Assembly: GCA_017459965.1 (NCBI GenBank) | Contig: JAFUBW010000007.1 | Location: 1 to 57,106 of the forward strand | DNA from: Bacilli bacterium | Lineage (GTDB): Bacteria > Bacillota_I > Bacilli_A > RF39 > UBA660 | Length of the DNA stretch: 57,106 bases | Reading direction: 5' to 3' | Shown here: positions 1-1,447 of the stretch, one piece after another | How the letters are laid out: every line of letters begins with the position of its first letter | Numbering within the stretch: the first letter of the stretch is position 1 | Program-made: the position numbers and the translations under genes | The notes under the pieces: model-generated | The model's input: only the letters and a program-made list of their open reading frames with translations | The model's database searches: none | Told to the model about the DNA's origin: nothing

Positions 1-264
1 GAAACTTATCAAAGATTATTTAAAACTACTGAAGAAGATATTAAAACTGCAAACGAAAAATTAGAAAAATTAAAAGAAGAAATTTCTAGTATAAATGAAG
101 ATTCCTCTTGTTATGTTGAATATTTAGATATAATTAAAAGTTTTCTTGATATGAAAAATCCAACAAGAGAGATTATGAATAGATTAATTGATAAAATATA
201 TGTAACTAAAGATAAAAAACTAGAAATTCATTATAGAATTAAAAAAAGTGAAGTATTAGTATAA
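1..264 (+). CDS. Large serine recombinase, C-terminal end (partial)
   Basis: An open frame enters from the window edge in frame 1 and stops at TAA 262-264, giving 87 residues. It has a lysine/glutamate-rich coiled-coil stretch followed by the end typical of large serine recombinases: an LIDKIYV-like strand, a charged turn and an IHYRIK-like strand. The catalytic N-terminal resolvase domain would lie outside the window, so the family call rests on the tail alone. Its own terminator follows at 277-295, and the truncated spoIVA gene begins about 65 bases beyond the stop. The position suggests it is the integrase or excisionase of an element inserted in spoIVA. It could instead be a remnant. Confidence 0.72.
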   Translation, partial: ETYQRLFKTTEEDIKTANEKLEKLKEEISSINEDSSCYVEYLDIIKSFLDMKNPTREIMNRLIDKIYVTKDKKLEIHYRIKKSEVLV

Positions 265-276
265 GAAAAATACAGG

Positions 277-295
277 TTGCTTTTGAGCAATTTTT
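277..295 (+). terminator. Rho-independent terminator of the recombinase gene
   Basis: A TTGCT/AGCAA stem with a four-base loop is followed by five Ts. It lies just after the recombinase stop and before any spoIVA homology, so it belongs to the inserted element and puts the element end downstream of about 295. Confidence 0.6.
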
Positions 296-1447
296 AAAAA
301 GACTTATGGGTATCACAAAAACAGGTCATACTGGTATGATGAAGATATTCCTTTTGTAGAGGCAGCTGAAATAGGTACTGAAAAAGTAATAAGAGATCAT
401 TCTACAATAGGAATTGTAGTAACTACAGATGGAAGTTTTACAGATATACCTAGAAATAGTTATGTAGAATGTGAAACAGAAGTAATAGATGAACTAAAAG
501 AAATAGGTAAACCATTTATAGTACTTTTAAATTCAGCACATCCAAGTCTTCCTGAAACAGAAAGATTAGCTGATAAATTAAAAGAAGAACATAATGTACC
601 TGTTATACCAATAAACTGTGAAAATATGAATGAAAAAGATGTATATAATATATTAAAAGAAGCCTTATATGAATTTCCAGTGCTTAATATAAAAGTAAAT
701 ATACCAGATTGGATCGGAACACTTAATCCATCTCATCCAATAAAGAAAGTATATATAGATGAAATAAAAAATAGCGTTATACAAGTTGATAAATTAAAAG
801 ATATAGAAACTATTAATAATAATTTTACTAGAAATGAAAAAATAGAAAAAGCATATATTTCAGAAGTAGATCCATCAACTGGGGAAGTAACTATTACATT
901 AAGTGCTCCTAATAATTTATATGATGAAGTATTAAAAGAAATAATAGGTACAAATATTAATAGTAGATCAGCACTTCTTTCTATATTTCAAGAGTATAAT
1001 GATACTAAAGAAGAATTTGAACAATATAAGAGTGCTTTAAAACAAGTAAAATCAACAGGTTATGGAATTGCTATGCCAACATTAAGAGATATGAAATTAG
1101 ATACACCAGAAGTAATAAAACAATCAGGAAGATATGGAGTTAAATTAAAAGCAGTCGCACCATCTATACATATGATAAGAGTAGATGTGGAATCAACATT
1201 TGAACCAATTATAGGTTCAGAACTTCAATCAAAAGAATTAATTGATTACTTAACTAAAAATAAAGAAGAGGGTAAAGATGCCATTTGGAAAAGTGAAATC
1301 TTTGGAAGAAGTTTAGATTCAATTGTACAAGAAGGTATACAAGCAAAACTTTCTTTAATGCCAGATAATTTAAGATATAAACTTCAAAATACAATGACTA
1401 AATTAGTTAATAAAGGATCTAATAATATGATAGCTATAGTTTTATAG
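287..1447 (+). CDS. spoIVA: Stage IV sporulation protein A, 3' part (gene interrupted)
   Basis: SpoIVA is the ATPase that polymerises on the forespore surface to form the basement layer of the spore coat. From about base 332 the frame reads as SpoIVA through to the family's C-terminus (WYDEDIPF, AAEIGT, HSTIGIVVTTDG, YGIAMPTL, APSIHMI, FGRSL, AKLSLMP, IAIVL). About 371 of the usual ~492 residues are present. The missing N-terminal ~120 residues would carry the Walker A and Walker B ATP-binding motifs. An in-frame TGA at 284 ends the open frame upstream. The first ATG in frame is internal (626) and lacks a sensible ribosome site, so this is a split gene and not a short independent one. The remaining frame has no lesions, as expected if the 5' part is rejoined by excision during sporulation. 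A fixed insertion or an assembly join is also possible. Confidence 0.9.
   Translation, partial: AIFKKTYGYHKNRSYWYDEDIPFVEAAEIGTEKVIRDHSTIGIVVTTDGSFTDIPRNSYVECETEVIDELKEIGKPFIVLLNSAHPSLPETERLADKLKEEHNVPVIPINCENMNEKDVYNILKEALYEFPVLNIKVNIPDWIGTLNPSHPIKKVYIDEIKNSVIQVDKLKDIETINNNFTRNEKIEKAYISEVDPSTGEVTITLSAPNNLYDEVLKEIIGTNINSRSALLSIFQEYNDTKEEFEQYKSALKQVKSTGYGIAMPTLRDMKLDTPEVIKQSGRYGVKLKAVAPSIHMIRVDVESTFEPIIGSELQSKELIDYLTKNKEEGKDAIWKSEIFGRSLDSIVQEGIQAKLSLMPDNLRYKLQNTMTKLVNKGSNNMIAIVL
326..339 (+). other. Candidate recombination crossover site (att junction) in spoIVA
   Basis: A 14-base dyad has six-base arms, TCATAC and GTATGA, around a central TG at 332-333. It sits where recognisable SpoIVA sequence begins (the Trp-Tyr-Asp codons start at 332). 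Large serine recombinases cut at a non-palindromic central dinucleotide flanked by inverted arms, so form and place both fit. The assignment is inference: the partner junction is outside the window and the dyad could arise by chance from Tyr-Trp-Tyr codons. Confidence 0.4.

Follow-up and report, generated by a model that had tools for sequence, protein, structure and literature searches.

Several sporulation genes are split, with the reading frame preserved, by elements that carry a serine recombinase, namely sigK by skin, spsM by SPbeta, spoVFB by vfbin, gerE by gin and yabG by yin, and gin is not phage-like (PMC5595907, PMC10747680). The elements described here share these properties and, like gin, are not phage-like. 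They differ from the five in that the target is spoIVA, the hosts are uncultured small-genome Bacilli, one of the two kinds of element (type A) carries a MobV relaxase, and excision is here what we infer. As far as anatomy goes, the likeness to skin, gin and yin appears to hold. No report of an intervening element in spoIVA was found in the literature searched, in which PMC11076785, a phrase match only, concerns SpoIVA function in C. sporogenes.

The recombinases nearest to those of the spoIVA elements are TndX of Tn5397 (35.8% identity) and TnpX of Tn4451 (domain structure 2mhc). Tn4451 also includes a MobV relaxase, has a 2-bp core and needs no RDF (PMC5704250). However, its target specificity is low, whereas the spoIVA elements always enter a single codon of a single gene. 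Genes described as dispensable, such as rumA, are disrupted by IMEs that have a site-specific serine recombinase, and related IMEs of this type share one intragenic site across several species, as the spoIVA elements do (PMC5704250). The integrase of Listeria LI/A118 recognises a zinc-domain motif at attP positions 16-24, with the attB copy 5 bp further in (PMC3783163). The motif spacing is the same at spoIVA, where it was read from sequence alone, but the motif, target and recombinase subfamily differ.

The window, i.e. the whole 57,106-nt stretch analysed, is a contig (C13) of a 23-contig draft genome and starts at the contig edge. A SpoIVA profile search of this genome revealed two halves of the gene, one on contig C17 (profile 1-123, positions 178-546, minus strand) and one in the window (profile 120-237, positions 326-679). 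The interrupted site is occupied in the family by two sister kinds of element, A and B, with TndX/TnpX-like serine recombinases, and the copy in the window is of the MobV-bearing type A. The features of the window at this junction are listed below.

1-264, plus strand: 3' end of a TndX/TnpX-like large serine recombinase gene (87 codons plus stop; the contig begins inside it)
274-296, plus strand: probable recombinase terminator hairpin (z only -1.0; recurs at type A right ends)
308-316, plus strand: attP half of attR, outer arm GGGTATCAC, a probable zinc-domain motif (positions 16-24 from TG)
317-331, plus strand: inner attP half ending in TCATAC, the last element bases (conservation is with type A elements and not with spoIVA)
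326-339, no strand: dyad TCATAC-TG-GTATGA (left arm element, right arm spoIVA)
332-334, plus strand: shared core TGG, the spoIVA Trp codon, with probable crossover at TG 332-333
332-1447, plus strand: 3' segment of spoIVA, 372 codons (Trp included) and stop
334-352, plus strand: spoIVA coding sequence forming the attB half of attR; zinc-domain-like motif GATATTCCT at 344-352 (positions 11-19)

The 87 recombinase residues in the window are 89–100% identical to those of relatives. The stop codon of the gene occupies 262-264, the hairpin with its U-run lies 3' of it, and the inverted partner of GGGTATCAC, GTGATACCC, is present on C17. Uninterrupted relatives read ...MVKTP-W-YDEDIPF at the site. 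The C17 junction is aaaacaccaTGG/gtgatgttgaataagtgataccc, the 5' part of spoIVA ending at ...CCA-TGG/GTGATG, and the window junction is gggtatcacaaaaacaggtcatac/TGGtatgatgaa. The sequence common to both is exactly TGG (332-334); hence, TCATAC belongs to the element and TGGTATGA to spoIVA. The segment from 308 to about 352 is best explained as the attR of a mobile element that has integrated into spoIVA, which we consider probable jointly with the skin-like interpretation given below. When rejoined, spoIVA of this genome is predicted to have 492 codons. It is very improbable that the halves are instead separate working proteins for which excision is unneeded. Both do remain open, but the 5' part terminates a few codons into the element, and more than 90 codons after the Trp are untranslatable from the 3' part, in which there is no in-frame ATG, GTG or TTG before 626.

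The initial annotation placed the crossover core at the 14-bp dyad and the element edge between 295 and the dyad. The arms TCATAC (326-331) and GTATGA (334-339) are exact inverted repeats around TG (332-333), as it described, and the dyad is centred on TGG at 332-334, the codon at which SpoIVA coding resumes after the element and which encodes the Trp of MV(K/R)TPW-Y. The alignment that it proposed, of both junctions with uninterrupted spoIVA, gave the TGG core, which includes the TG. The case that it named against itself, the whole dyad being spoIVA coding sequence, does not apply, as the TCATAC arm is part of the element. The edge is located elsewhere, inside the dyad, after 331 at the TGG. 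Thus, the TG lies inside the shared core, but the dyad as a whole is an element/host hybrid of a kind expected by chance. The window includes 59 perfect dyads with 6-nt arms and a 2-nt spacer (~1 per kb; five centred on TG or CA), as compared with 56.7 ± 7 in first-order Markov simulations, and the dyad was therefore rejected as a significant pattern by itself. Its weight comes from its position; the pattern alone carries none. It is the sole such case in the region 296-400. The dyad is perfect at just 8 of the 13 junctions of type A, the left arm being altered in G227 and the right arm in G246, G066, G358 and G281.

In large serine recombinases, direction is set by an asymmetric central dinucleotide. 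In the spoIVA elements, a three-domain recombinase (Pfam Resolvase, Recombinase and Zn_ribbon_recom in the G010 copy) is encoded beside the att site, and the short core has an asymmetric TG between inverted arms. The symmetry of attP and the position of the attB motif 5 bp inward indicate that TG 332-333 is the probable crossover dinucleotide. In 22 attP sites, the mean arm identity was 10.2/24 when centred on TG, 7.95 on GG, and 3.4–8.0 elsewhere. The conserved symmetry extends beyond the dyad, with GTGATACCC at positions 16-24 of each type A arm. The arms are equidistant about TG in all 11 type A sites and in 1 of 11 type B sites; in the remaining type B sites one side is one base longer. 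In attB, the right arm gives its highest motif score at start 11, which ranks third in the left arm; the two arms combined score highest with the motif at start 11 and the centre at TG, 5 bp further in than the attP copy. In single genes, the true TG had a median rank of 8 among about 1400 positions and ranked poorly in G066 and G358. There is a small chance that strands are exchanged at GG (333-334) inside the same core, since a 3-bp core alone cannot separate GG from TG and GG is the second best attP centre; however, TG is the more symmetric of the two in both attP and attB.

The TGG core is further indicated by G016 and G204, where the contigs on either side both stop precisely at TGG, the 3 nt of which are their sole overlap. 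As all elements seen continue with G after TGG, the overlap would be TGGG if two types of element were mixed. The forks are a hint, taken from contig ends, of coexisting empty and occupied sites, but may instead reflect mixed strains. No pair of empty and occupied sites from one strain was seen among the genomes, nor any attP circle in the viral contigs scanned. A search for the right end in G016, G204 and G304 gave the window's own site as the only true match.

Of 386 genomes of the family, 333 had a SpoIVA match over the cut-off. By reading of junctions, 25 of the 333 (about 7%), from 21 genera, have spoIVA split at this Trp codon. This number includes G011, G184 and G304, counted from one flank, and G016 and G204, counted from contig ends. 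G103 and G124 were treated as equivalent to G011 and G009, respectively, because their scores were equal. Additional split genes were found outside this sample in G005, G002, G008 and G010. In G167, G213, G280 and G295 the contigs merely end inside spoIVA, and these were not counted. G008 has an intact, more distant spoIVA beside the split one (L126, L121), and two species may be mixed in its bin.

In seven genomes, a single contig contains a complete element together with the two spoIVA halves that flank it. Type A is complete on single contigs of G010, G327 and G387, where it has a length of 13.4–13.9 kb. In the window's genome, C17, with the 5' part of spoIVA and attL, overlaps by 111 identical bases with the 3130-nt contig C8, which contains the element's first gene and a gene for a 431-aa protein homologous to MobV relaxases, a family assignment made with the G010 copy. 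The order in the element is therefore C17, C8, an assembly gap and C13, with the recombinase gene last. Type B is smaller (3.6–11.1 kb) and consists of the recombinase gene and cargo, for example a single ATPase-like gene in G250 or a gene for a 2740-aa M26-like metallopeptidase in G005. Type A carries its own recombinase and MobV relaxase genes, and no conjugation genes were recognised among the profiled ORFs of three complete elements. A small ORF (38–76 aa), alike in A and B, precedes the recombinase gene in all 11 elements in which this region is assembled; its product had no family match in NCBIfam and is, as a guess, a candidate directionality factor. The motif MYExxEFYxxxGxDxKDxLKSCIYxYY is seen in this product (L120, L114, L203-L207). 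The start of the window at the edge of a draft contig would fit an assembly or binning artefact, in which a chimeric contig fuses a recombinase gene to spoIVA. The same junction is found in about 25 genomes, and chimerism is effectively refuted for the group by this recurrence and the seven single-contig elements; for the window, in whose genome C17 and C8 overlap exactly, it is very improbable.

The order RF39, to which the hosts probably belong, has been predicted to sporulate (PMC10868615), and the window's genus has a sigma-E-like factor, which scores below the cut-off of its model. A two-box promoter model learned from 92 host spoIVA upstream regions converged on GTCATATT and CATATATTTAAATG, which we take to be close to the sigma-E consensus of B. 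subtilis. In the region before the small ORF and recombinase gene, 7 of 11 elements score 13.3–17.5, which is reached by 2–3 of 81 control upstream regions (the stretch holding spoIVA itself among them), and an eighth scores 10.5, reached by 6 of the 81. Thus, 8 of 11 elements have a sigma-E-like promoter in front of their recombinase operon, while that of G183 (type B) is weak (7.6) and G327 and G010 (type A) have no scoring match. The promoter region of the window's own element lies in an unassembled part.

spoIVA acts early in the mother cell and is essential for sporulation. In this it is unlike the dispensable targets of IMEs, which suggests repair by excision. From the two halves, the TGG core, the recurrence, the open rejoined gene with low dN/dS and the sigma-E-like promoters, we judge it probable that this is a skin-like, sporulation-coupled intervening element of spoIVA made by a TndX/TnpX-like recombinase. 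The recombinase would have recombined the element's attP and the attB located at the TGG (Trp) codon, likely with strand exchange at TG. In the mother cell, recombinase produced from the sigma-E-like promoter would then excise the element and restore the 492-codon gene, possibly with the aid of the product of the small ORF in front of the recombinase gene, and the forespore would keep the element. There is about an even chance that a mobilizable lineage uses this one codon as its home family-wide and is excised in the mother cell only, at the sigma-E stage and before skin leaves sigK, so that the cost of the insertion is escaped in a cell that is going to die anyway.

The type A recombinase DNA is identical, over the 478 codons available, in G011, G066, G358 and G281, and the dS of spoIVA among the last three is 0.60–1.04; on these sequences, type A has spread recently between genera. 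Type B in three genomes of the window's genus (G004, G005 and G007) shows a recombinase dS of 0.71–0.84 and a spoIVA dS of 0.54–0.67. The three form one clade in the trees of both the recombinase (95/91) and spoIVA (89/89), and the cargo of G005 and G007 is homologous (65% identity). This is most simply read as one old insertion that was vertically inherited.

The insertion lies inside a sporulation gene, and its precise removal restores the frame; in 23 of 24 cases, the rejoined spoIVA has an open frame of native length. The exception is G358 (L197), which has an early stop at 432 codons due to a frameshift or an assembly error. The dN/dS of spoIVA is 0.05–0.09 in the old type B carriers and 0.025–0.05 in intact sisters, values that show purifying selection on the rejoined gene. 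It is raised to 0.11–0.15 in the window's own spoIVA, and some carriers, including that of the window and the frameshifted G358, may be losing the gene. Such cases would suit an ordinary integrative element that uses a conserved site in spoIVA, knocks out sporulation and is excised rarely and without regulation, the gene looking intact because the insertions are young. The faster evolution of the window's spoIVA than of intact sisters, the frameshift in G358 and the recent type A, with an identical recombinase in four species, are all in line with this explanation. Nevertheless, it is rather unlikely, as the type B insertion predates three species in which spoIVA still has a low dN/dS, and sigma-E-like promoters precede most recombinase operons.

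If the skin-like interpretation is true, spoIVA joins the short list of sporulation genes with excisable elements, and the phenomenon extends to uncultured small-genome gut Bacilli, in about 7% of genomes. The recurrent att site, with both horizontal spread and vertical persistence, makes the question of parasite, passenger or regulator testable by comparison, and the site-specific TndX-like recombinases form a group with a precisely located core.

Several elements have further individual features. The 2740-aa M26/Zmp-like metallopeptidase is cargo of type B in the window's genus in both G005 (L114:4235-12457) and G007, and nearly identical ATPase-like cargo is found in type B of hosts of different genera, G172 and G250 (L203, L205). 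The element of G107 (L171, L158) is a hybrid with a type A-like recombinase gene, the left inner arm TTCATAC and a type B-like left end; the inner arm appears to follow the kind of recombinase. In G184 (L213), the left end at this Trp codon is a variant, TGG-GGTGTTATATAAAAATGGATACC, and a homologue of the first gene of type A is present.
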